Shown one piece after another: positions 8,963 through 20,840 of a DNA stretch of 64,000 bases. Source of the DNA: Desulfurococcaceae archaeon (GTDB lineage Archaea > Thermoproteota > Thermoprotei_A > Sulfolobales > Desulfurococcaceae); NCBI GenBank assembly GCA_038845865.1, contig JAWBQJ010000002.1, positions 124,001-188,000 on the forward strand, given 5' to 3'. Under the pieces are notes generated by a model. That model ran no database searches. It was given only the letters and a program-made list of their open reading frames with translations, and was not told the origin of the DNA. Position numbers and translations under genes: made by a program. How positions within the stretch are numbered: position 1 is the stretch's first letter; every line of letters starts with the position of its first letter.

Positions 8963-9036
8963 GGGCCCGTAGCTCAGCCTGGTAGAGCGGCGGGCTCTTA
9001 ACCCGTAGGTCCCGGGTTCAAATCCCGGCGGGCCCG
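8963..9036 (+). tRNA. tRNA-Lys (anticodon CTT)
   Basis: A complete cloverleaf can be drawn. The acceptor stem GGGCCCG (8963-8969) pairs with CGGGCCC (9029-9035), with discriminator G9036. The D stem is GCTC/GAGC, the anticodon stem GCGGG/CCCGT with loop CTCTTAA (anticodon CTT at 8997-8999), and the T stem CCGGG/CCCGG around TTCAAAT. There is no intron, and the 3' CCA is not fully encoded (only CA follows). It reads AAG lysine codons. The stems are very GC-rich, as in hyperthermophiles. Confidence 0.97.
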
Positions 9037-9044
9037 CACTCCTA

Positions 9045-9965
9045 GTGCATCATGAGGCTGTACCCTATATGCTGAGGCCGCTGGTACCAGGTACCGATAC
9101 CGGTATATACGTAGTTGCTGGAACGCCGTTCCTCTACCTCGAGGATTCATTTACGCTCGTAATGGCCGACTTGCACCTAGGATTCGAAGAGGCCGCTTCA
9201 AGGGGCTTAGTATACAGCTTGAGGAAAACGGGTGGTTACCCAGCTGTGTTCATTCCCCGAATCCAGCTAAGGAAGACTGTTAACATGCTGAAAGGGCCCT
9301 TAAACGCCTTGAAGGTTAAGAGAGTGATCATAAACGGCGACTTGAAACACGCGTTTGACAGGCTTCTCAGGCAGGAGCGAGAAGAGGTTACCGAGCTAGT
9401 CAAGTTTCTAAGGGAGAACAATGTCGAAGAAATAGTCGTTGTGCGCGGTAACCACGACAATTTCGTAAAACCCATTCTCCTAAAACTCGGCGTGGACTTC
9501 GTTAACGGGATATCAACAGTTACGCGGGGAAAGAGGGTTCTATTCGTACATGGACACGAAAACGTAGACCTATCGGAGCAGGAAATCGTCGTTATAGGTC
9601 ACGAGCACCCGAGTCTTAAGTGCTTTGACGTTTACAGGTTCCCCTGCTATATGAAAATCCCGCTCCCCGGTGGAAGGATGCTGGTCGTGATGCCTGCAAC
9701 GGGGCCATACCACCCTGGCGTGGTTGTGACGCTCACACCCTCGGAATACCTTTCACCACTAATTAGGAGACAGGGATCTTTGAAATCTATGATCATCACT
9801 ACTTGGATAGACCTTGGAGAGGTATCGCCTAGAAGCGTAGAGTATTTTGAAACACCCGAACTCGTGGAGTACATTAGAGTCGATAGGCTTACCGCTGGCA
9901 GCAGGGAATACGCTATAATAGAGTTCAGGAATTACGATGTAGCACAGCTACTTTGCCGACTTTAA
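9045..9965 (+). CDS. Metallophosphoesterase, archaeal SbcD-related family
   Basis: A 306-residue calcineurin-like phosphoesterase. The metal-binding signatures appear in order: ADLHLGFE, INGDLKH, VRGNHDNFV, FVHGHENV and IGHEHP, i.e. the five Asp/His/Asn blocks that hold two metal ions. Sequence layout matches the archaeal family once called SbcD-related (TIGR00024), whose physiological substrate is unclear. The start may be GTG 9045, 8 nt after the tRNA, or ATG 9069; the latter still keeps all motifs. Confidence 0.88.
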   Translation: MHHEAVPYMLRPLVPGTDTGIYVVAGTPFLYLEDSFTLVMADLHLGFEEAASRGLVYSLRKTGGYPAVFIPRIQLRKTVNMLKGPLNALKVKRVIINGDLKHAFDRLLRQEREEVTELVKFLRENNVEEIVVVRGNHDNFVKPILLKLGVDFVNGISTVTRGKRVLFVHGHENVDLSEQEIVVIGHEHPSLKCFDVYRFPCYMKIPLPGGRMLVVMPATGPYHPGVVVTLTPSEYLSPLIRRQGSLKSMIITTWIDLGEVSPRSVEYFETPELVEYIRVDRLTAGSREYAIIEFRNYDVAQLLCRL

Positions 9966-10133
9966 TCAGCTAATCGACCCCTCATCAGTATTCAGGCTAT
10001 GTCGGCTTCATCACCCATCATGTAAACTTAGAGCACGGATACCTATAACTCTTTAACTAGCTCTTGATTCGTGGCCGCGCTCCAAGCGACATCTACAGCC
10101 TGAACGACGAACACTCTCCTAAGGAGAATTACG

Positions 10134-10142
10134 CTTTAAAAG
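10134..10142 (+). promoter_or_regulatory. Box A promoter of Lon-like protease gene
   Basis: CTTTAAAAG around 10134-10142 predicts transcription start near 10166. The only suitable start after that is ATG 10178, preceded by GGTGAG at 10165-10170. This argues against the longer frame from 10064. Confidence 0.45.
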
Positions 10143-10177
10143 AGCCTGAACATACCCTTATCTCGGTGAGTACGATT

Positions 10178-12091
10178 ATGTTTGAGCGTGGAAAACCTAG
10201 GAGAGTGCTCGCAACCCTCATACTACTGGTGCTTACAGTGCCGTTAATCAGTGTTTACGCGCTATTCGAGTATAGCGAAGTCAAGAGCGCCACCATATAC
10301 GCTCCTGCCGTGTCAAGTAGCGGACAAGGTGTTTTGTCAAAAATAACGCTGGCAGTTGCGTATCCGGGTAGCGGTAGAGTGTTCTTCTCCGCGCTCCCCT
10401 ACACGGAGGTCGAAACGCAGGGTGCCGCGAGGCTTGCCGCGTACATAGCATCACTGGTAGCTAAGGTGGAGTTTTCAAAGTACGATTACTACGTACTTGT
10501 AGAGTCCACGGTACCGCTTATTGGTGGCCCTAGTGCAGGGGGTTTAATGACCGTAGGATTCACTGCGCTACTTCTAAACTTCACATTAAACGATGCCGTC
10601 ACCATGACGGGCATGATCAACCCGGATGGCACCATCGGGCCCGTGGGAGGCCTTAAGGAAAAGCTTGAAGCCGCCGCGAACAAGGGGATCAGGACCTTTC
10701 TCATCCCGGCGGGGCAGAGGGTGTACAGCTACCCAGTTTACGAGGAGTACAGGAGGGGCGTGTTCATCATTAGGAGAACGCGCTATGTGAGCGTAGACCT
10801 CGTGGAGTACGGTAAAGGCCTCGGCGTAGACGTCGTAGAGGTCTATAGCGTTGGTGAAGCGCTGTACTACTTCACAGGGTTAAACACCACAACGAGTATT
10901 GCAGTGCCTCAAAGCACGCTCGACGGCGTGCTCAGCACTGCAAGGGAATTCCATGCAGGCCTCTTAAACAAGATCACGTTACTTTCGGGAGAGGCTACTA
11001 GTCTGGCAGGGCGCCTGGGAGGCTACTACGGGTATTCCTACATGCAGGCTATTAGCAGGTTGAACCAGACCATCAGGGAACTCACAGGTGCGGTAGACAG
11101 GCACCCGGTTTACGTTACATACCAATTGCTAAGTGCCTACAGGAGCGCACTCGAATACTACTGGGCTTTACGACTACTAACCGGTGCTTCAACGGTAGAG
11201 AATATGCTCGACGAGGTGAACAACACTATTAATAAGGCGGTAGGTGAGTTCTACTCCGAGAACTACACGCTGGAAAGTAGCCTCGTCCAGGCGTACCTAC
11301 ACGCTGCATGGCTTTACTACTCGAACGCGATGAACACCACTGAGCTTTCAAGCCGGCTAGAGTACGTTAGCGAGGCATTAAAACTCGTAGAACTAGCAAG
11401 ACTGCACTACGAGCTCTCAACGTGGAATTGCACTCCACTGAGCTCTTCTTTAGACAAGCTCACGGAGGTATACTCACACACCCTCGGAGTATACACGTAC
11501 ACGTCCAGGTTGCTTAGAGAGCTGAACGCTGAAACGAGCGTTCTCGATCAAGCCGCTGGCTACGTGGAGGTGCTCAATTACGCGTACGAGTCCAAGAGCC
11601 CGCTCGTCTACGGTATGGGGTCGCTAGTACTGGGCTACTCATCTCTCGCAATTCACAGCGCACTCGGTACCGCTAGTATCGTGCCCGGTAAGTGGGCGGG
11701 TTTAGCAGGTTTATACGCGAGTAGGGAGGCTTCGCCCCTCGTTGTTTATTATCTACAACTTGTAGTCGAGGCGGTAACGCTGAGTGATAGTAACACAGGT
11801 ATCTTGGCGTTAACAACTGCAATAGCGTTAATTCAGGTACGTTCCACGGCCTCGACCACTACCTTATGCAAGTCACAGGAACACGAATACGGCTTCTCCA
11901 CGAACATAACTACCAGTACCGTTAAGGAGAGCGCTGGAGAGAGTACCAGGACCTCTACTGTGCAACAAGACAAAGGCGTTAAACTTGAAAATATAGAGCT
12001 AGCATTAGTATTGGCGCTAGCCGCGATCGGGGCTGTTACCCTCGCGCACGTACTAACACGTACTAAAACGACGCCGGTAACGAGCCGGTAA
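10178..12091 (+). CDS. Secreted/membrane Lon-like serine protease, COG1750 family
   Basis: A 637-residue protein with an N-terminal membrane or signal segment (VLATLILLVLTVPLISVYALF) and a C-terminal membrane segment before KTTPVTSR. The Lon-type catalytic region lies near the N-terminus: IGGPSAGG with Ser119 and GGLKEKLEAA with Lys162, a 43-residue spacing identical to the Ser-Lys dyad of bacterial Lon. A long helical, Asn/Thr-rich (glycosylatable) middle follows. There is no AAA+ ATPase domain. It is probably an extracytoplasmic ATP-independent protease. A paralogue is encoded at 26862-28613. Confidence 0.85.
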   Translation: MFERGKPRRVLATLILLVLTVPLISVYALFEYSEVKSATIYAPAVSSSGQGVLSKITLAVAYPGSGRVFFSALPYTEVETQGAARLAAYIASLVAKVEFSKYDYYVLVESTVPLIGGPSAGGLMTVGFTALLLNFTLNDAVTMTGMINPDGTIGPVGGLKEKLEAAANKGIRTFLIPAGQRVYSYPVYEEYRRGVFIIRRTRYVSVDLVEYGKGLGVDVVEVYSVGEALYYFTGLNTTTSIAVPQSTLDGVLSTAREFHAGLLNKITLLSGEATSLAGRLGGYYGYSYMQAISRLNQTIRELTGAVDRHPVYVTYQLLSAYRSALEYYWALRLLTGASTVENMLDEVNNTINKAVGEFYSENYTLESSLVQAYLHAAWLYYSNAMNTTELSSRLEYVSEALKLVELARLHYELSTWNCTPLSSSLDKLTEVYSHTLGVYTYTSRLLRELNAETSVLDQAAGYVEVLNYAYESKSPLVYGMGSLVLGYSSLAIHSALGTASIVPGKWAGLAGLYASREASPLVVYYLQLVVEAVTLSDSNTGILALTTAIALIQVRSTASTTTLCKSQEHEYGFSTNITTSTVKESAGESTRTSTVQQDKGVKLENIELALVLALAAIGAVTLAHVLTRTKTTPVTSR

Positions 12092-12160
12092 ACGTTTTGC
12101 TTAAAATACCCCGAGCTCATAATATAGAGCCGGGCATTAACGGGGGTGCCACCCAACGTG

Positions 12161-13297
12161 ATGCCGTTGCTTTACGACCCATTTACGCTATTAGCCTTAA
12201 TACTAGCCTACATAGTAGGTTTCACGGTACTCGCGTTAATGGCAGGCTACATTGCACCAAGAATCGCTAAAAGGTTTTCAGAGAAGCTCCCCCTATACGC
12301 ATCAATGACCATTGTCGGGCTACTAGTAGTGGTCTCGGGTTTCGCCGGGGTGGGCCTTACAGCGTACATGATCTCAGGGGTGATCGGCGTAGAAAGCACT
12401 ACGAGCATGATTATTGCCATTCTCGTAATCGTAGTAGTGTTAAATGCCATAACGTACATTAATTCGCCTTTAATAATAAACATAATGTACAATGCAAAGC
12501 CGAGCGCGCAATTACAAGAAGTAGTTAATAGAGTAGCTAAGAAGCTGGGCTTCGCCAAGCCCCCTAAAGCAGTCGTTGTTCGAGGACCCCCTAATGCCTT
12601 TGCTTATGGTAACTTCATATTTGGAAGGTATGTGGCCGTTTCAAGTAGCCTCGTTGAAATAACTACTCCCGAAGAGCTCGAAGCGATCATAGGGCATGAA
12701 CTAGGCCACCACAAGCACCGCGACAATGCTATAATGCTTTTCATGGGGTTAATACCGAGTCTACTATATTTCCTAGGCATAATGCTGATCAGGACAGGCA
12801 TATTAGTAGGCTACACGAGGTCGTACTCTTCCTCTAGGAGAAGGGAAGGGGGAGGAGGGCTATTGCTAGTTTTAACTGGTGTAGTTACAGTTGTAGTTAG
12901 TTTTATCGTCCAGGTACTAGTCCTCGCCTTTAGCAGGCTTAGAGAGTACTATGCTGACGCGACAGGAGCGTACGCTACTACTACGAAAGCCATGCAGAGA
13001 GCGCTTGCTAGAATACATGTATACTACACTCAAAGGCCAGCGGCGCTGGAGACCGTGTCTAACAGCAAGTTAAAGGCACTCTTCATATACGCCTTCATGG
13101 ACACATTCGCCAATCCATTCTACCGCCCTGCTCTACCAGCTAGAGACCCACGTAACGTTGATGTAGATCACGTGATAGAGCAGCTGAAAAAACAGAAAAC
13201 AGAAGACGTGTCAGAATTCTTCTCGACGCACCCACCAATACCGAAAAGAATTAGATTCCTAGATACCCTTGTATTCTACTACATGCAACCACCATAA
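12161..13297 (+). CDS. M48 family membrane metalloprotease, HtpX-like
   Basis: About 378 residues. Two N-terminal membrane spans and a third pair near residues 200-265 surround the zinc site IIGHELGHHKHRDN, with the third ligand region REYYADATGAYAT downstream. This is the HtpX/Ste24-like architecture for degradation of damaged membrane proteins. The start could be GTG 12146, GTG 12158 or ATG 12161; the GGGGGTG at 12142-12148 favours one of the latter two. It lies 69 nt downstream of the COG1750 protease gene, so two membrane proteases may be cotranscribed. Confidence 0.9.
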   Translation: MPLLYDPFTLLALILAYIVGFTVLALMAGYIAPRIAKRFSEKLPLYASMTIVGLLVVVSGFAGVGLTAYMISGVIGVESTTSMIIAILVIVVVLNAITYINSPLIINIMYNAKPSAQLQEVVNRVAKKLGFAKPPKAVVVRGPPNAFAYGNFIFGRYVAVSSSLVEITTPEELEAIIGHELGHHKHRDNAIMLFMGLIPSLLYFLGIMLIRTGILVGYTRSYSSSRRREGGGGLLLVLTGVVTVVVSFIVQVLVLAFSRLREYYADATGAYATTTKAMQRALARIHVYYTQRPAALETVSNSKLKALFIYAFMDTFANPFYRPALPARDPRNVDVDHVIEQLKKQKTEDVSEFFSTHPPIPKRIRFLDTLVFYYMQPP

Positions 13298-13352
13298 CTT
13301 AAGGCATCTTCCACCACGTAGTCACTACTAATTTAAGATATGTACAAAATTA

Positions 13353-13438
13353 CTAATATCATTAGATATCTGAACTCCATAAGGTAAAATCGTGGCAATC
13401 TATGGTTAGAAAAACTTAAATAAGGAACTTTATATATT
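13353..13438 (+). promoter_or_regulatory. Palindrome and box A upstream of winged-helix regulator
   Basis: CTAAT-ATC-ATTAG at 13353-13365 is a perfect inverted repeat. The box A TTTATATATT is at 13429-13438, and a start with AGGTG precedes TTG 13489. The 10-mer CTAATATCAT recurs exactly at 14534-14543 upstream of the first pilus-like subunit gene. It may be an operator of the adjacent winged-helix proteins; that is inference. Confidence 0.4.
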
Positions 13439-13488
13439 ACCTTAACGAGCACTATTTTTAGATTCCACGCGCACATCAGGTGTAATTT

Positions 13489-13746
13489 TTGAAGAAGAAG
13501 CGCGATCTGTTACAAGTGTACTCCGAGGTGCTGAAAGAGCTTTATAAGAATCCTATGAGGCTAACCCACATTATGAGGAAGTGCAACCTGGATACCAGAA
13601 TGGCTAAACAAGTTATTGGTGCACTAACGTCAAGAGGCCTCATAGCCCTCAAGAACGAGGGGAACTATAAGCTCTACTACATTACGGAGAAGGGGACTAA
13701 ATTCCTGGAGCTCTATGAAGGCCTGCAGGAACTTCTAAAGAAGTAA
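13489..13746 (+). CDS. Winged-helix transcriptional regulator, Sso10a/HTH_45-like
   Basis: An 85-residue single winged-helix domain: VYSEVLKELYKNPMRLTHIMRKCNL as helices 1-2, TRMAKQVIGALTSRGLI as the recognition helix, LKNEGNYKLYYITEKG as the wing, and a C-terminal dimerisation helix FLELYEGLQELLKK. This is the Sso10a/HTH_45 layout common in Crenarchaeota. The start is TTG 13489 with AGGTG 6 nt upstream. It is the first gene of the pilus-like locus and has a related two-domain protein directly downstream. Confidence 0.82.
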   Translation: MKKKRDLLQVYSEVLKELYKNPMRLTHIMRKCNLDTRMAKQVIGALTSRGLIALKNEGNYKLYYITEKGTKFLELYEGLQELLKK

Positions 13747-13781
13747 GTTGTAGAAGGTAACCATGTGCTTTTAAATCGCAA

Positions 13782-13793
13782 AGTATAAAAAAG
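13782..13793 (+). promoter_or_regulatory. Box A promoter of second winged-helix gene
   Basis: AGTATAAAAAAG at 13782-13793, some 30 nt before ATG 13824, would give a very short leader. This suggests the second regulator can be transcribed independently of the first. Confidence 0.4.
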
Positions 13794-13823
13794 TAATTTC
13801 TAACCCTACTCTTAGGGTTTATT

Positions 13824-14447
13824 ATGATCTTCTTAGCTAAAAGAAGGGATATTGTTGAGGTTATGAATGAGGTTCTAGAAGGCATTTCCAAGGGACTCCC
13901 CATTACGCGCATCATGATGTACTCTAGTGTAAACTATGCCTACATGAAGAAGGTCGTTCTACTTTTATCGGATAGGGGTTTAATTAAGGTGGAAAAGGAT
14001 CCCGAGGAAATGAGGTTCCATTACTACTTGACAACAAAGGGTATATATCTGCGAAATCTGCTGAACAGCCTTAACGGCCTTTTAGTATACAGTTATGGTA
14101 ATGCTAATGACGCTAGTTGGGACCCCGAATACGACGCAAAGTACATTGAAGAGAAGTCACGCATTGTAGTAAAAGAACTAAGTACTAAGAAGAAGAGAAG
14201 CCACATAGAGATATACTTTGCTATTCTCAGCTCCATTACGAATAAGCCGAGAACCATCTCGTCAATAGCTAACCACTGCTACATCAACTTAGAGCAAGCT
14301 ACCAAGTACCTAAAGGAGCTGTTAGAGTTAGACATGGTAGTAGAGGTTAGTGACCTGAATAAGAAGAAGTACCAGGTCACGGGTAAAGGTATGCGGTTTC
14401 TAGACACTTACTTGAGAATATACGAGCTTGTACGCGGTCTAGATTAA
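13824..14447 (+). CDS. Tandem winged-helix regulator
   Basis: A 207-residue protein with two winged-helix domains of the same type as its neighbour. The first covers residues ~5-75 (VMNEVLEGISKGLPITRIMMYSSV, then a FHYYLTTKG wing). The second covers ~120-205 (IYFAILSSITNKPRTISSIA, then KKYQVTGKG and a C-terminal helix). A single protein may thus mimic the dimer formed by single-domain paralogues and contact two half-sites. It is probably a regulator of the secreted-subunit genes that follow, to judge by position. Confidence 0.8.
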   Translation: MIFLAKRRDIVEVMNEVLEGISKGLPITRIMMYSSVNYAYMKKVVLLLSDRGLIKVEKDPEEMRFHYYLTTKGIYLRNLLNSLNGLLVYSYGNANDASWDPEYDAKYIEEKSRIVVKELSTKKKRSHIEIYFAILSSITNKPRTISSIANHCYINLEQATKYLKELLELDMVVEVSDLNKKKYQVTGKGMRFLDTYLRIYELVRGLD

Positions 14448-14502
14448 GGAACGCCATCTTCCCCCAGCTAACTATTTTACGCAGCTTTTCCTTCATATTT
14501 CA

Positions 14503-14570
14503 AGTTACATAAGATCAATACAGTTACATAGTTCTAATATCATGAAAAAGAATCTAGTGTATTTATAAGT
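14503..14570 (+). promoter_or_regulatory. Promoter with direct repeats upstream of pilus-like operon
   Basis: AGTTACATA occurs twice, at 14503-14511 and 14522-14530, 19 bp apart (about two helical turns). CTAATATCAT follows at 14534-14543, then box A TTTATAAGT at 14562-14570, then the first subunit ATG at 14601 after a TGGTG site. The repeats sit just upstream of the TATA/BRE, where activators bind in archaea. Confidence 0.5.
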
Positions 14571-14600
14571 AGTTTAAGCGGTAAAAAGCCTGGTGTAAAC

Positions 14601-15137
14601 ATGATAGCCTTAAAAGCAATAGCCATACCGATAGTGCTACTAGTGACGATAGGATTTGCACTAGCAATGTGGAGCGAAACGCTCCTCGTAAACGTGACGG
14701 TGGAAACGGGAGAAGTGGATGTAAAGTTCTCCGAGTGGTACTGCAGCGATACTGGCCCAGACCCGCAGGCAGAAGGATATCACAACGAGGAAGGAAAAGA
14801 CGTGGCTTCATGCAATATCGAAGTGGAGGAGTACGACGACGAGGGAGACCCGATCAAGCTCTTAGTCACGTTAAGTAACGCATACCCAGGCTACACCGTA
14901 GACGTGGGACTTATAATAGACAACATTGGCACGATACCAGTTAAGCTATACAATTGGGATATTGAGGTAGACGAGCCCATAGGTGCCAGCCTATTGATAC
15001 CCGAGGACACGCAGATCGATCCAGGAGGCTACGCGGAGTACATCTTACGGATAACAATACCGCAAGAAGCCGAGGAGAATGCGACTTACAGCTTAGAGTT
15101 AACGCTCGTATTTGCGCAGTGGAACGAAGTAGGTTAA
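14601..15137 (+). CDS. Secreted TasA/camelysin-like fibre subunit A
   Basis: A 178-residue secreted protein. The signal peptide covers residues 1-22, ending FALA before MWSETL. The mature chain begins with a strand MWSETLLVNVTVETGEV, followed by an acidic loop with two cysteines (YCSDTG and ASCNIE, possibly a disulfide), a core LSNAYPGYTVDVGLIIDNIGTIPVK and a closing segment LELTLVFAQWNE. This matches the SipW-dependent TasA/camelysin family, which includes archaeal bundling-pilus subunits (AbpA). It is the smallest of three related subunits here and probably the major fibre protein. Confidence 0.8.
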   Translation: MIALKAIAIPIVLLVTIGFALAMWSETLLVNVTVETGEVDVKFSEWYCSDTGPDPQAEGYHNEEGKDVASCNIEVEEYDDEGDPIKLLVTLSNAYPGYTVDVGLIIDNIGTIPVKLYNWDIEVDEPIGASLLIPEDTQIDPGGYAEYILRITIPQEAEENATYSLELTLVFAQWNEVG

Positions 15138-15161
15138 GCAAGCAATTAGAGGTGTGTATGA

Positions 15162-15836
15162 ATGCGGAAAGCAATAGTTTTTTCACTAATCCTTCTCATC
15201 TCGCTACTACCGATGCTAGCATTCGCGATGTGGAGTGAAACGCTAAGAGTAAACTCAGCTGTATCAACCGGCGAAGTAGACTGGAGAATAGTCCCTGGAA
15301 GCCTAATATACCTAGACGCCTGCGGACTACAACCAGGATATGGGTTCTTCGCCGGAAACGACTGGAACGCTACCTACTTACCTCAGCCGGGAGCTATACA
15401 GTTGGATAAGGATGTCGGTTGTACCAGTGTGGTGTTAATGGATGGCGATGGTGACGGCGACATGGACACCATGAACGTGACTCTACACAACACATATCCA
15501 TACTACTACACGCACATAGCGTTTAAAGTACACAATAGTGGAACAATCCCGGTAAAGATATGGAGAGTAATCATTAACGGGCAAGAATTCTACGAATTAA
15601 ACGAACAGGTGCTACAACAAGGTGTTGAACTAGACCTAACGGGCGATGGTAGGCCAGATGTGCTAATATGGTGGGGTAACAACTTTGGCATACAACTACA
15701 TCCGTGTCAGAGTGCCGACATAAGCTTCGACTTAACGCTACTACAAGACGCCCCCGAAGGCGCTACGTTAACGTTTATCGTAAGATTTGAAGCGGTCCAG
15801 TGGAACGAGTACTTCGTACCTACCCTAAGGGATTAG
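15162..15836 (+). CDS. Secreted TasA/camelysin-like fibre subunit B
   Basis: A 224-residue paralogue of subunit A. The signal peptide is residues 1-22 (ending AFA) with the mature start MWSETLRVN, then STGEVD, the core LHNTYPYYYTHIAFKVHNSGTIPVK and the closing AVQWNEYF. It carries extra Asp-rich loops: DGDGDGDMD at 94-102 and DLTGDGRPD at 158-166, which resemble calcium-binding loops. Two cysteines near 50 and 88 could form a disulfide. The start ATG follows GAGGTG, 24 nt after subunit A, so the two are cotranscribed. Confidence 0.78.
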   Translation: MRKAIVFSLILLISLLPMLAFAMWSETLRVNSAVSTGEVDWRIVPGSLIYLDACGLQPGYGFFAGNDWNATYLPQPGAIQLDKDVGCTSVVLMDGDGDGDMDTMNVTLHNTYPYYYTHIAFKVHNSGTIPVKIWRVIINGQEFYELNEQVLQQGVELDLTGDGRPDVLIWWGNNFGIQLHPCQSADISFDLTLLQDAPEGATLTFIVRFEAVQWNEYFVPTLRD

Positions 15837-15848
15837 CGTGTATGTGGG

Positions 15849-15872
15849 TATATATGGAAATCAACGTTTTTT
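15849..15872 (+). terminator. T-run terminator overlapping possible internal promoter
   Basis: TATATAT at 15849-15855 could act as box A for subunit C (start near 15877), and TTTTTT at 15867-15872 could end transcripts of subunits A and B. Archaeal RNA polymerase terminates at such T-runs. Together they could separate expression of A/B from C. Confidence 0.4.
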
Positions 15873-15917
15873 CCCGCACCATCATCTCCCCAAGCTTCCT
15901 AACTAGGAGTGATTACC

Positions 15918-17300
15918 GTGAATAGGGCAAATACTGATGTGCTGGTCTTACCTGTAGTGGCCTTGACGCTCGTCGCGATCGTAATGTTTGCCTCTGCAAT
16001 GTGGACTGGTATTTTGAGGCTAAACGCAGTAGTTGAAACCGGTGAAGTAAACATAGCTTACAGAAATGTCACGATCAGCGAGGCCAGTGAAGTAGGAGGT
16101 AAAGACGTAGGTAACTGCATCTATACGCTCGAGACAGGTGGCAGCGTTGATCGCCTTAAAATAAGCATATCAAACGGTTATCCAGGCTATAAGTGCATAG
16201 TAACCTTCAATGTAGTAAACACCGGTACAATACCGGTAATAGGGCCCTTCTTCAACGTAACTGAAATACCCCATGGAGTAAGGGTAGTGTTCAATCCACC
16301 CAGTGTTCAACAGCTACACCCAGGTGACCTGGCTCACTACGAGGTAGTGGTAGAAGTACTACAAGAGGCCAGTGAAAACTCCAATTACACAGTGGACATC
16401 GAGATAACCTACATTCAGTGGAACGAGGCATACTCCTCTATAAGCGGCTATGTCTGGAACGATGTAAATAGCGATGAGGCGTGGAATCCCGGCGAAGACC
16501 CCGTGGAGGACGTTAATGTACTGTTAAGACAAGACGGCGTTACCATAGGCTCCACGTACACGAGCATAAACGGATACTACTCCTTCATGGTGTACCCAGG
16601 CACGTATGTCATCGAGATAGTTGTACCACCAGGGTACACTAACACCACCACGTTAGCGATAACGAGGACCGTAAGCATTGGGGAATCAAGTACTAATAAT
16701 AACTTCGGAATAGTGCAACAACTAACACCGCCTCCTCCACAGGGGTTAAGTGTATGGGGGGAATTTAGAGAAACTGACGTTGACTTCAGGAAATGCCCGG
16801 CTAAGCTTGGAACGCCGTTAGATAGGGTAAATGCCACGGTATCTAAAACAGGAGAGGTTATAAGTGTCGCGCCGGGAGCGTTCTACTACGTGTTATGGGT
16901 TAATGGTACGGGGTTAACGAGCATCAACATTACCCTCGCGTATGACTACCAGTTCAACATAGAAGACGGGGCAGGCGGAAAGATACGTGTATACATGTTA
17001 AATACAACGACGATGTGCATTACTAAGGAACTGGATAACGGGGCGTACACGTACAGCGTGAATAACACGTTAAACAGGGCGATCGTGAACATAACGTTAT
17101 CCAATCCGCTACCACCAGATGCAGTTATACTGGTGTACACTAAGTTCAAGCCGACGCACTACGACCCCTGCAAGGAGCCGAATGGATTAATAGGTCACAG
17201 GTGGGATACCCTTGACAAGTCCTTTGAAGTAAACTATAACGCAGTGGCAAACGTTGGCTCGTTGAGCGGGGCCTCTACGATACAGATCGTTAAAAAGTAG
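15918..17300 (+). CDS. Modular TasA-like subunit C with SdrD-B-like domain
   Basis: About 460 residues from GTG 15918, placed after AGGAGTGAT (GTG 15909 is the alternative). The signal peptide ends FASA before MWTGILRLN. A TasA-like module follows (ETGEVNI, ISNGYPGYKCIVTFNVVNTG, ITYIQWNE). Residues ~175-255 form a Cna-B/SdrD-B-like domain: SGYVWNDVNSDEAWNPGED with a calcium-type Asp/Asn loop, then GYYSFMVYPGTY. Residues ~270-460 are a separate beta-rich domain of unknown type with many NxT/S sites. It is probably a tip, anchor or adhesin subunit. Confidence 0.75.
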   Translation: MNRANTDVLVLPVVALTLVAIVMFASAMWTGILRLNAVVETGEVNIAYRNVTISEASEVGGKDVGNCIYTLETGGSVDRLKISISNGYPGYKCIVTFNVVNTGTIPVIGPFFNVTEIPHGVRVVFNPPSVQQLHPGDLAHYEVVVEVLQEASENSNYTVDIEITYIQWNEAYSSISGYVWNDVNSDEAWNPGEDPVEDVNVLLRQDGVTIGSTYTSINGYYSFMVYPGTYVIEIVVPPGYTNTTTLAITRTVSIGESSTNNNFGIVQQLTPPPPQGLSVWGEFRETDVDFRKCPAKLGTPLDRVNATVSKTGEVISVAPGAFYYVLWVNGTGLTSINITLAYDYQFNIEDGAGGKIRVYMLNTTTMCITKELDNGAYTYSVNNTLNRAIVNITLSNPLPPDAVILVYTKFKPTHYDPCKEPNGLIGHRWDTLDKSFEVNYNAVANVGSLSGASTIQIVKK

Positions 17301-17315
17301 CTTTTCAACAACAGG

Positions 17316-17321
17316 TTTTTT
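17316..17321 (+). terminator. T-run terminator after subunit C
   Basis: TTTTTT at 17316-17321, followed by further pyrimidine-rich sequence and TTTTA at 17336-17340, fits an archaeal T-run terminator. It would lower expression of the signal peptidase relative to the subunits. Confidence 0.4.
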
Positions 17322-17369
17322 ACTTCCTTCCTGCGTTTTATCTACTCAACTGGTTGGAGGCTCGAATTT

Positions 17370-18557
17370 ATGGATTTGAAGGTTATACTTATATTACTCG
17401 TTCTCGCTTTAATGTACTTCTTGACGTACTTCTACAAGGCAACTTCAGGCTTACTATTTTACTACGTGCAGAGCACCACCTACATCGCAGTAGTCCTCTT
17501 AGCCTGGGACGAGGTTAGGGATTACCTTAAGTACGGTCGCTTCACTGTCATAATCTCGTTCTTCACGCTAGGTTACTTATCAGTTTACGTAATGCTAGGT
17601 TTCTGGAGTGGGTTCGGATTAACACCGTACTCGACAAGCCCCATGGGAATGGCTATAAACGTGATTCATGCCGCTTCGAGAATTTGCGCGCTGGAGTTTC
17701 TTAGAGCGTATGTCATTCACATGCTCAAATACAGATATAGGCGCCTAGCAGTACACGCGTCTACGCTAGTTGTGTGGTTCTTAACGTGGTTTCCATACCC
17801 GTTACTATCATTAACGCCATCGATGGACAGCTTAAAGCTAGCCTTTAGGAACCTCATTCCATCGTTTATAAGTAGTGCTTTTTCAACGTTCATCGTTTTA
17901 AACCACGGCATGGTATCCTCGATCGTTTACAACCTGGTGCCCCAGTTGTTCATCAAGGTAATGCCGTTCCTGCCGAGATTGGGGTGGTTTATTGAAGGAG
18001 CACTTAACACCATGACGCCTCTAGTAGGTTACTCCATCACACTACCATACAGTAGGGTCGCGGAAAGAAATGTTAGAAGAATGCGTAGCGAGGTTAAGCG
18101 CATTACTAGGTTAATCACGTACTTCGCGGCGGTAATGGCCTTGATCGTTGTTTTTCAAGGATACACCGGTTTTAGGTTTTACGTTATCTCCAGTAGAAGC
18201 ATGGAACCGGCGCTCAGCGTAGGAGATATAGTCGTCATTTGCAACCAATGCAAGGACATCAACGTGGGAGACGTAGTAGCTTACATTTCGAAATGGGGCG
18301 TGGTAATTCACAGGGTCGTGGAACTTCGCGAAGACCAGAAGTACGTGATCACCAAAGGTGACGCGAACAGGGACCCCGACCTCGAACCCGTGCCCTTTGA
18401 AAACATCATTGGAAAAGCAGTCCTGCGCGTACCCGTTCTCGGGTACGTTTCAATATTTCTACACGAGGTACCTGTAAGCAGCTTGCGGGCCTTGCTTCTA
18501 GCACCGTTACTTGCTTTACCAATAGCATTGTATGTATTTAAGAGGTTAAAGACTTAG
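17370..18557 (+). CDS. Signal peptidase I (SipW/ER type) with multi-TM N-terminus
   Basis: A 395-residue membrane enzyme. The first ~265 residues contain about six hydrophobic spans. The catalytic domain follows, with Ser277 in SSRSMEPALSVGDIV, His314 in GVVIHRVVEL and the Asp box KGDANRDPD, then a last membrane span. Ser-His rather than Ser-Lys is the ER/archaeal/SipW subtype (S26B). Ordinary archaeal signal peptidases have only one or two spans, so the large membrane part is unusual. Its position directly after the TasA-like genes points to their dedicated maturation. GGTTGGAGG precedes ATG 17370. Confidence 0.88.
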   Translation: MDLKVILILLVLALMYFLTYFYKATSGLLFYYVQSTTYIAVVLLAWDEVRDYLKYGRFTVIISFFTLGYLSVYVMLGFWSGFGLTPYSTSPMGMAINVIHAASRICALEFLRAYVIHMLKYRYRRLAVHASTLVVWFLTWFPYPLLSLTPSMDSLKLAFRNLIPSFISSAFSTFIVLNHGMVSSIVYNLVPQLFIKVMPFLPRLGWFIEGALNTMTPLVGYSITLPYSRVAERNVRRMRSEVKRITRLITYFAAVMALIVVFQGYTGFRFYVISSRSMEPALSVGDIVVICNQCKDINVGDVVAYISKWGVVIHRVVELREDQKYVITKGDANRDPDLEPVPFENIIGKAVLRVPVLGYVSIFLHEVPVSSLRALLLAPLLALPIALYVFKRLKT

Positions 18558-18582
18558 TAAATACAGTTAACTCGGTGTAATA

Positions 18583-19605
18583 GTGTTCAGGGGCATATTT
18601 TACAACAAAATATTGATAGGAGTAGTTTTATTCATATTGGTATCGTCGATATTCATGGTGGTGTATGCTTACCAGTTGCCACTAGAGAAAGTACATGAAA
18701 GTACGCTCTACGAGTATACCAGTAAGGGGGTGTTCGACTACATCGTTACGCTCTATCCAAGCATACTGTACGAGGACAGCACGCTGACGAACCCGGATAA
18801 GGTGTTCCTAAAACTCGTGGATAAGGTTGCTGTGAGTATAGCCTACGTGTTCGATTCCAAACCCCCGGCAACGGAAATCAGTAACACTTTGGACGTGGAA
18901 GTGCTACTGAGCCATCCGCAGGTGTGGAGTAGAAAGATGAGTTCCGCGACCATCGGGTCGCGGGAAAACGTAGTTAAGTACGTGGTGGAGCTAGACATAC
19001 CCCTAATACTGTCTCTTGCTAAAAATATTTCGCAAGCGGTGGACTTACCCAGCTCCAAGTACACTATCATTATAAACTGTGTCGCTAAGACTACCTTCAC
19101 CTTAGCCGGCGTAACTAGAACCACTAACTTTCCTTTCTCGCTTCAAATGAACTTAGACCTTGTAGGAAAAACCATTGAATTCTCCCAAAGAGAGTTTAGC
19201 AATACTAATGCCCAGAAAAGCACTGAAGCCCGTGAAACCGCAGTACACGTGGGCTTCATTAGCGTAAGTACCCGCCTCCTCAGGCAGGTATCTATAGTGT
19301 TCTTGGTTGCAACCTCCGCCTTTACAGCTACTTTAGCGGGGATAAGTGTTGCTCACTTGTACAAGGTTAGGAAAAGCAGCACTTTGAGGTCGGCTCGTAA
19401 GTATAAGTCGTTAATAGTTGAAACAAGCGAGATCTCCGGGGACGTATCCGGTAAAGTTGTAAAGGTTAAGAGCCTGGATGAGCTCGCGAAGATCTCCGAG
19501 AGCGTTGTTAAGCCTATTATGTACTTAAAGACGGACAATAAGCACTCGTTCTACGTGCTCGACGAAGATGTCATCTACATATATGAGCACGAAGAAAAAA
19601 GCTAG
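18583..19605 (+). CDS. DUF5305-like membrane protein of the pilus-like locus
   Basis: A 340-residue protein from GTG 18583, with an N-terminal membrane span (ILIGVVLFILVSSIFMVVYAY), an extracytoplasmic beta-rich domain of ~200 residues, a second span near 240-260 and a cytoplasmic tail of ~80 residues. The pattern EKVHESTLYEYTSKGVFDY near the N-terminus and a two-span outline match DUF5305, which is often found beside SipW-type peptidases in archaea. It may anchor or assemble the fibre. It lies 25 nt after the peptidase and is probably cotranscribed with it. Confidence 0.7.
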   Translation: MFRGIFYNKILIGVVLFILVSSIFMVVYAYQLPLEKVHESTLYEYTSKGVFDYIVTLYPSILYEDSTLTNPDKVFLKLVDKVAVSIAYVFDSKPPATEISNTLDVEVLLSHPQVWSRKMSSATIGSRENVVKYVVELDIPLILSLAKNISQAVDLPSSKYTIIINCVAKTTFTLAGVTRTTNFPFSLQMNLDLVGKTIEFSQREFSNTNAQKSTEARETAVHVGFISVSTRLLRQVSIVFLVATSAFTATLAGISVAHLYKVRKSSTLRSARKYKSLIVETSEISGDVSGKVVKVKSLDELAKISESVVKPIMYLKTDNKHSFYVLDEDVIYIYEHEEKS

Positions 19606-19943
19606 AAATTCAAATTGCCTCTCCTTTCCCTTAAGTGAGGAATTCTCCATTACAGCAACTCTCATTATTATAAAGGGCGATACCGACCTCCCGGCTGGTC
19701 ACAGGGGGGAAGCGTACTAGCGGGGCTTAAACCATGGTGTATGGCTAGTTTAAACTCCGTGAATTAATGGTAACTATTCCGGACTCGCTGATACGGGTAC
19801 ACGGTAACATAGATAGGTAGTTCGCCGAGAACGCCGTGTGAACAATATCCACGCTCTACGGGTCTTACTCCACTATTTGCTTAGGCTACCTAGAAGAAGA
19901 TATAAGGCGTCTACTAGAGTCATTCACACTAATGAGCATCTCC
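19606..19943. other. Intergenic region without a supported gene
   Basis: 338 bases between convergent genes. TTATAAAG at 19668-19675 could be a box A, and the following 100 bases contain TTAAAC/GTTTAA as a weak hairpin and CCGGACTCGCTGATA at 19779-19793. That motif recurs with one mismatch at 48096-48110. No tRNA, rRNA or convincing small-RNA fold is visible. The short frame at 19838-20035 is antisense to the phosphatase gene and lacks protein-like composition. Confidence 0.4.
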
Positions 19944-20840
19944 CTAGATGTAGTCCGAGTATATGCCCCAGCTCAGTACAGGCTTTACTCCGAGTAGCGC
20001 GGTTAATTTCGCCGAGTTGCCTTCTGCGACGTTAACGGTGTCCTCGCATGGTTCACTGCAGAGAAGTGTTATTTCGGGCTTGTCCAAGGTTCTTGTGTGC
20101 AGTACTACTACCTTTGAGTCCATTTTGTAGTCCAAGGAGTGCGAAAAGTCTACTAAACCTTCACTACTTTCCATTGCTAGCCCCGTTTTCTCTTTAAGGA
20201 GCTTTATTACGTTATCCCTATGAGCATGTAGCATTGATGCGTACAGCTCCCTCCTCACGTCTACGTTGTTCAGACCAAGTCCATTGTACAGCTCTATGGT
20301 GAACTGCAGTACTTTAGATAAATGCTTGTATGATACACCATCAGTTTCACTAAGCTCTTCTACAACCTCTACAAACCTACTTAGTAAAAGACGGTCAACG
20401 CTACTCGTCAACATATAGTAGTCTTCGAGTAATTGTAGTTGCCACTGGTTTTCTACAGAACCCGGAACCTTACTTCTTACGTGTAAAAGTGCCTCGTAAA
20501 CCCCGTAGCCTTTGTAAATGAGGTAACCCGCTGTTACCTGCCCGCTTCTCCCTATCCCTCCATAACAGTGTACTAGGACGGCCCCACCTCTACTTACGTG
20601 CTTCTCTATGAATAAGGATGCTCTTAGAACATCTAACAGCTCCACCGGGTAGTTGTCCGGTGTAGGTATATGTAGGACATCCAACCCGGCCTCCTTCAGG
20701 TGATCTATGTACAGCACCGGAAGCTCGCGCCATGTAGGGAGAACTATTATGCCTGTAAACGCCTCCATTAGCTGTTTAAACGTAGACCTACTTGGTAGGG
20801 GCGCCTGCGCGAGTTTTCCTTCGATGATCCACGTGTACAC
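19944..20840 (-). CDS. Dual-specificity/tyrosine protein phosphatase
   Basis: A 298-residue protein starting at GTG 20840. The phosphatase signature VHCYGGIGRSG (catalytic Cys and Arg of the P-loop) lies near residue 92 within a cysteine-dependent dual-specificity phosphatase fold of about 155 residues, with a general-acid Asp probably in the HIPTPDNYP region. The remaining ~140 residues are mainly helical and unfamiliar and may confer substrate choice. Crenarchaea have few such enzymes, acting on phospho-Tyr/Ser/Thr proteins. Confidence 0.85.
   Translation of the reverse strand: MYTWIIEGKLAQAPLPSRSTFKQLMEAFTGIIVLPTWRELPVLYIDHLKEAGLDVLHIPTPDNYPVELLDVLRASLFIEKHVSRGGAVLVHCYGGIGRSGQVTAGYLIYKGYGVYEALLHVRSKVPGSVENQWQLQLLEDYYMLTSSVDRLLLSRFVEVVEELSETDGVSYKHLSKVLQFTIELYNGLGLNNVDVRRELYASMLHAHRDNVIKLLKEKTGLAMESSEGLVDFSHSLDYKMDSKVVVLHTRTLDKPEITLLCSEPCEDTVNVAEGNSAKLTALLGVKPVLSWGIYSDYI

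Follow-up and report, generated by a model that had tools for sequence, protein, structure and literature searches.

A seven-gene locus of a heat-loving Desulfurococcaceae archaeon, at positions 13489-19605 of the 64,000-nucleotide stretch that we analysed (positions 124,001 to 188,000 of contig JAWBQJ010000002.1, here called the window), appears to make a surface fibre that is assembled by donor-strand exchange and belongs with the archaeal bundling pili (AbpX/AbpA/TasA), a reading to which we give a probability of about 0.8. It is the best reading because the predicted fibre subunits are homologous to AbpX, the bundling-pilus protein of Pyrodictium abyssi, and share its donor-strand segment. 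The seven open reading frames, listed in an initial annotation of this DNA, all lie at the place and on the one (plus) strand described there. They encode two winged helix-turn-helix (wHTH) proteins, three secreted subunits (sub1, sub2 and sub3), a long SipW-type S26B signal peptidase and a DUF5305 protein. Chance can be excluded as the source of this arrangement, since the gene order is kept in dozens of genomes. The initial annotation had proposed a TasA/bundling-pilus-type fibre locus with a dedicated SipW-type peptidase; this stands, with the correction that the nearest solved relative is AbpX and not AbpA.

The link to AbpX was obtained in single-sequence searches against all PDB sequences. 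Here, sub1 (14601-15137, 178 amino acids) matched AbpX (9sj2) with an expectation value (E) of 4.9e-8 and sub3 (15909-17300, 463 amino acids) with E=2.6e-6, while sub2 (15162-15836, 224 amino acids) gave a weak match on its own (E=0.0041). Profiles of the order-wide groups of sub1 and sub2 matched AbpX in the PDB with E=4.2e-13 and 1.7e-8, respectively. The homology includes the very start of the mature chain. The deposited AbpX fibre chain 9sj2 begins with QWSETL (QWSETLSLSATISTG), and in construct 9rhp this start is missing and GGGG plus the N-terminal strand is re-supplied at the C-terminus, ending GGGGQWSETLSLSATISTG; from its sequence, we read 9rhp as a self-complemented AbpX monomer. Because both deposited AbpX sequences point to it, the shared N-terminal WSETL...TG segment is taken to be the donor strand. 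In the alignment, all three window subunits carry MW-x-x-x-L-x-x-N-x-x-V-x-TGEV directly after the hydrophobic signal sequence, and their MWSETL/MWTGIL...TGEV segment aligns with QWSETL...STG of AbpX, where the deposited chain starts. The predicted donor strands are residues 23-40 of sub1 (MWSETLLVNVTVETGEVD, 14667-14720, which is also its predicted mature N-terminus), residues 23-40 of sub2 (15228-15281) and residues 31-48 of sub3 (15999-16052).

The description of the subunits as three secreted paralogues was borne out: sub2 and sub3 are each 36% identical to sub1, the shared domain has 38 invariant columns, and hydropathy indicates one N-terminal hydrophobic segment in each protein. Profile annotation gave no significant Pfam match for sub1 or sub2. 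In a tree of 109 subunits, sub1 and sub2 of the window fall in two separate order-wide clades, and by their sequences they are order-wide orthologue groups that form a conserved two-subunit core. Both keep the full donor strand, the groove motifs and a C-terminal QWNE, and their identity to the window copy is mostly 46-72% across the families. A disulfide is probable in each, between Cys48 and Cys71 of sub1 (all-or-none in 16 of 18 homologues) and between Cys54 and Cys87 of sub2 (both there or both missing in 16/16). Two Asp-rich loops of sub2, DGDGDGDMD and DLTGDGRPD (15441-15467 and 15633-15659), together with weak FG-GAP_3 matches in 11 of 16 sub2 homologues, suggest that these loops bind calcium and that the fibres may be calcium-stabilised.

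The third subunit combines the fibre domain with an SdrD_B stalk (residues 177-249, 16437-16655; PF17210, E=2e-12, 47.7 bits) and a C-terminal beta-rich domain (16674-17297). Accessory subunits of four other loci (L156, L031, L159 and L025) end in homologues of this last domain (phmmer E from 1e-42 to 7e-23), and in one of these loci it is fused to sub2. In the subunit tree, sub3 groups with the third subunit of genome G018. As judged from these comparisons, sub3 is a sporadic, optional, adhesin-like accessory.

The peptidase (17370-18557, 395 amino acids, catalytic part at residues ~250-371) scores 92.6 bits against TIGR02228, the archaeal signal peptidase I model (cut-off 51.85), and Ser277, His314, Asp331 and Asp337 do not vary among 18 relatives, which agrees with the multi-span S26B enzyme proposed initially. 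Against the Bacillus SipW equivalog NF046067 it reaches 55.6 bits over residues 256-379, below the cut-off of 190. The estimate of some six extra membrane spans was roughly right, as a simple hydropathy scan counts five hydrophobic segments for the protein of the window and 6-10 for its relatives. Since a separate signal peptidase of 156 amino acids is encoded elsewhere in the genome (G000:C1:544063), the long one can be dedicated to this locus.

Next to the peptidase lies the DUF5305 gene (18583-19605, 340 amino acids), for which the predicted two-span, DUF5305-like architecture was recovered: the protein matches PF17231 with 55.8 bits (cut-off 29) and has two hydropathy spans, at residues ~10-28 and 236-254. 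Between them lies a large domain, which is predicted to be outside. A single-sequence structure model of the protein reached a predicted local distance difference test (pLDDT) score of 40, too low for use, and we found no paper on DUF5305 in the literature searched.

At the other end of the locus, both winged-helix assignments held. The single winged helix wHTH1 (13489-13746, 85 amino acids; HTH_45, Sso10a-like) matches PF14947 with 53.6 bits (cut-off 25.5), and wHTH2 (13824-14447, 207 amino acids) is a double winged helix, with 85.4 bits in two stretches. wHTH1 is probably a regulator. As for wHTH2, 38 of 50 loci have a homologous wHTH gene no more than 4 kb from the peptidase. The 153-bp gap between wHTH2 and sub1 contains a TATA-like box (TATTTATAAG, 14555-14570), read from the sequence some 35-40 bases upstream of sub1, so that the subunits probably have a promoter of their own, separate from the regulators. 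T-tracts can likewise be read downstream of sub2 and of sub3.

To describe the cassette in other genomes, loci were fetched via one of its own genes, an ascertainment bias because of which all co-occurrence counts are conditional on the gene used. When DUF5305 alone was used to retrieve 20 loci, a long peptidase (mostly ~400 amino acids) stood next to it in 19 and at least two fibre subunits were present in 17; most are ordered wHTH - sub1 - sub2 - (sub3) - peptidase - DUF5305. The sub1 profile matches 30 of 300 sampled genomes, with the cassette patchily distributed over Thermoproteota, and a long peptidase of 376-453 amino acids is present in 18 of 20 loci fetched across the phylum via this profile. 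One genome (G266) encodes AbpX at 100% identity, and at this locus (L129, 9065-11091) a long SipW-type peptidase of 380 amino acids lies directly downstream of the AbpX gene, followed by an unrelated gene of opposite orientation. Two features singled out initially as unusual are therefore ordinary: two to four subunits per locus are common, and a multi-span peptidase of about this length occurs across the phylum and also beside AbpX. Overall, the peptidase is the constant partner of the subunits, DUF5305 is frequent and sub3 is optional. At one locus (L130, 6152-7132), a very divergent DUF5305 protein occupies the expected place with E=0.0015, below the cut-off, so absence of DUF5305 by profile is partly a problem of sensitivity.

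TasA, ABP and ABPx have been called donor-strand-exchanged fibres, ABPx of Pyrodictium abyssi being a bundling one (PMC11952670). The AbpX pilus (9sj2, 9rhp) resembles the window system in its homologous subunits and its N-terminal WSETL...TG donor strand, and its gene, too, precedes that of a long SipW-type peptidase from the same family. It differs in having one subunit gene with no DUF5305 or wHTH gene found alongside, whereas the window has three subunits, one of them with an SdrD_B stalk, as well as DUF5305 and two wHTH genes. AbpA of Pyrobaculum calidifontis, a TasA-related donor-strand fibre of a hyperthermophilic crenarchaeon (PMC9674648, PMC11952670), was not recovered by the sequence and structure searches made here. 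The TasA/TapA/SipW system of Bacillus subtilis and the CalY1/CalY2/SipW system of B. cereus, the latter with two camelysins in the operon sipW-calY1-bc_1280-calY2, share with the window a single operon of secreted subunits and a dedicated SipW-type peptidase, and have more than one TasA-like protein (PMC10151520, PMC9674648). In contrast to these, the window subunits reach TasA and camelysin at sub-threshold similarity, the peptidase has extra membrane segments, and DUF5305 and wHTH genes are present where no TapA is found. TasA (5of1, 8aur) is the next fold-relevant PDB match after AbpX for a profile of the 27-member subunit family; the match (E=0.24-0.3) is below threshold, colinear, and ends in the same QWN motif.

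Other filament types fit less well. A type IV pilus or archaellum was dropped, as the mature proteins start with a beta-strand aligned to AbpX, and pilin ATPase and platform genes are not in the cassette. The archaeal thread (Saci_0406), whose donor-strand-complemented filament is freed by signal peptidase I, has been described as a class apart, marked by a YYY motif and an isopeptide link (PMC9715654); it was set aside, with no PDB match of the window subunits to Saci_0406 and a mature N-terminus of MWSETL instead of the YYY motif. A search of viral contigs gave no relatives, a search of genome contigs returned one remote bacterial signal peptidase only, and the PHROGs search gave nothing useful.

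Several results weigh against a fibre of the AbpX/AbpA/TasA kind. The AlphaFold monomer model of sub1, made from an input alignment of the three window paralogues only, is a beta-sandwich with pLDDT 73. With this three-paralogue alignment behind the model, Foldseek returned nothing at E<=0.001, and the best matches were adaptin-ear domains of a generic Ig-like kind; TasA, AbpA and AbpX were not among them. The initial annotation had pointed to the Peptidase_M73/TasA and DUF5305 profiles as a check. DUF5305 came out above its cut-off; Peptidase_M73 had no match above cut-off in the organism's own genome or for the window subunits, with sub-threshold matches in 8 of 27 homologues (best E=0.0013). 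No window subunit was above threshold for the SipW-cognate signal peptide TIGR04088; its sole match in this genome lies elsewhere (E=0.45), and the homologue set reaches 0.0023. The AbpA chain was recovered neither by the subunit profile of family f20 nor by that of the 27-member family. Finally, no DUF5305 gene was found beside the AbpX gene of G266, and DUF5305 is thus not obligatory. On the other hand, residues 24-35 of the sub1 model, within the predicted donor strand, have pLDDT below 50 next to a beta-sandwich core at 80-89, and such disorder in a monomer model is as expected for a free donor strand.

Part of this evidence is also what one would see if the three proteins were simply beta-sandwich surface proteins, secreted or membrane-associated components of a matrix, a sheath or an S-layer-associated structure that do not polymerise by strand exchange. 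Foldseek reads the sub1 model as such a generic sandwich, and some homologues weakly match CARDB or other Ig-like families. We regard this as improbable given the significant homology to AbpX, which includes the exact donor-strand segment, and the conserved pairing with a SipW-type peptidase, which is seen in TasA and camelysin operons and beside the AbpX gene itself. If the locus does make a donor-strand-exchange fibre, the division of labour among its subunits could still take more than one form. Either sub1 or sub2 alone may build the fibre, with the other supplying the first strand as an initiator or chaperone in the manner of TapA and with sub3 as a tip adhesin. In Bacillus, TapA donates the first strand of TasA and one of the two camelysins of the B. 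cereus operon has been proposed as an initiator (PMC10151520, PMC9674648); the separate order-wide orthologue groups of sub1 and sub2 and the T-tract after sub2 would also suit such a division. Both proteins retain the donor strand, the groove motifs and the final QWNE, so either could be a shaft subunit, and we hold a single builder to be a real possibility but the less probable arrangement.

A comparable doubt attaches to DUF5305, which is proposed as a partner of the system because it almost always stands beside the peptidase in close relatives. It could be a cofactor of the peptidase in processing or quality control and not the base of the fibre. No gene lies closer to that of the peptidase, with an overlap or a gap of tens of bases in most cases, and the two proteins have diverged about equally fast (identity to the window copy is 15-23% for DUF5305 and 19-27% for the peptidase, both far below the conservation of sub1 and sub2). 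Against a cofactor speaks the large inter-span domain, predicted to be outside as for an anchor, and we would put a base somewhat ahead of a cofactor.

For the donor-strand-exchange fibre, we propose the following course of assembly. Sec-type signal peptides would direct the export of sub1 and sub2, and both would stay in the membrane up to their cleavage by the long SipW-type peptidase, just after the Ala that precedes Met-Trp. Cleavage would free the N-terminal strand MWSETL...TGEV, which would fill the groove of a neighbouring subunit, so that growth of the fibre would need neither ATP nor an usher. The shaft would consist of sub1 and sub2, in either one mixed fibre or two fibres, with sub3 as a minor adhesin that points sideways and outward or sits at the end. 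DUF5305 would most likely be the membrane-fixed base, an initiator or starter, or a processing partner of the peptidase. The likely use of such a fibre is cell-cell or surface attachment in biofilms.

The cassette is an island. Comparison of the window with four congener loci (L176, L177, L180 and L181) showed that positions 13298-19943 are missing there from between the two genes that border them in the window. The left one encodes an HtpX-like M48 protease (12146-13297); the right one, on the opposite strand to the cassette, is a dual-specificity-phosphatase-like gene (19944-20840), named from its HCYGGIGRSG motif with no profile behind the name. These two genes are directly adjacent, 73-75 bases apart, in G007 and G002, and HtpX adjoins the following gene in G003 and G001. 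The empty site upholds the earlier view of the locus as self-contained. The simplest reading of these comparisons is that the cassette was gained by transfer as a block; repeated loss would be less simple. In three congeners (G002, G004 and G005), a cassette from a different lineage is found at another site; it lacks sub3 and has one more subunit, a divergent one, encoded upstream of the regulator. Approximately unbiased (AU) tests rejected grouping of the window copy with the congeners for the peptidase (p=1e-4), DUF5305 (p=7e-10) and sub1 (p=4e-4); the trees have long branches, and the rejection is strong but model-dependent. The extra congener subunit, of ~190 amino acids and very divergent (L149, 11375-11947; L150, 11551-12123; L151, 11475-12047), forms a clade of its own in the subunit tree.

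A decayed remnant was seen in congener G007 at a locus other than that of the window (L034, 7576-8601). There, a broken wHTH1 at 70-76% identity stands beside a truncated DUF5305 at 51% identity, the fibre genes and the peptidase being gone from between them. We saw no repeats around the cassette that could point to a mechanism of integration, no tRNA lies at its boundary (the only tRNA of the window is tRNA-Lys at 8963), and Rfam gave no match inside it. The G+C fraction of the cassette, 0.41-0.47 compared to ~0.49, is too weak a signal to argue from alone. Beyond the left flank, the neighbour of HtpX (10064-12091) encodes a membrane or exported protein with a Lon-type (S16) protease domain, and this pair is kept in the congeners. 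A possible C/D-box small RNA (9963-10017, minus strand; RF00095, 34.2 bits, below the cut-off of 45) sits just before this secreted Lon-like protease gene.

Taken to its furthest, the evidence would describe a modular archaeal fibre cassette, exchanged horizontally, with co-polymerising sub1 and sub2, an optional stalked, strain-specific adhesin, and DUF5305 as a new membrane-anchored starter of donor-strand exchange, which in archaea would take the place of TapA or an usher; this full picture is speculative, and we doubt that it holds in all its parts. The additions made here are the tie to AbpX, the two-subunit core with an optional stalked subunit, the partnership of DUF5305 and the evidence for exchange as a block. 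Parts of the gene neighbourhood may already have been described in the original AbpA/AbpX papers.

With these results, a solved but little-studied fibre, AbpX, is placed in a gene cassette that is patchily spread over Thermoproteota and gained or lost as a block, and two candidates can be named, the long peptidase as the dedicated enzyme and DUF5305 as the base protein. If it is true that the fibre type is swapped by transfer, this would help to explain differences in aggregation and attachment among close relatives. How archaeal donor-strand fibres start without an usher or chaperone thereby becomes a question that can be tested gene by gene.

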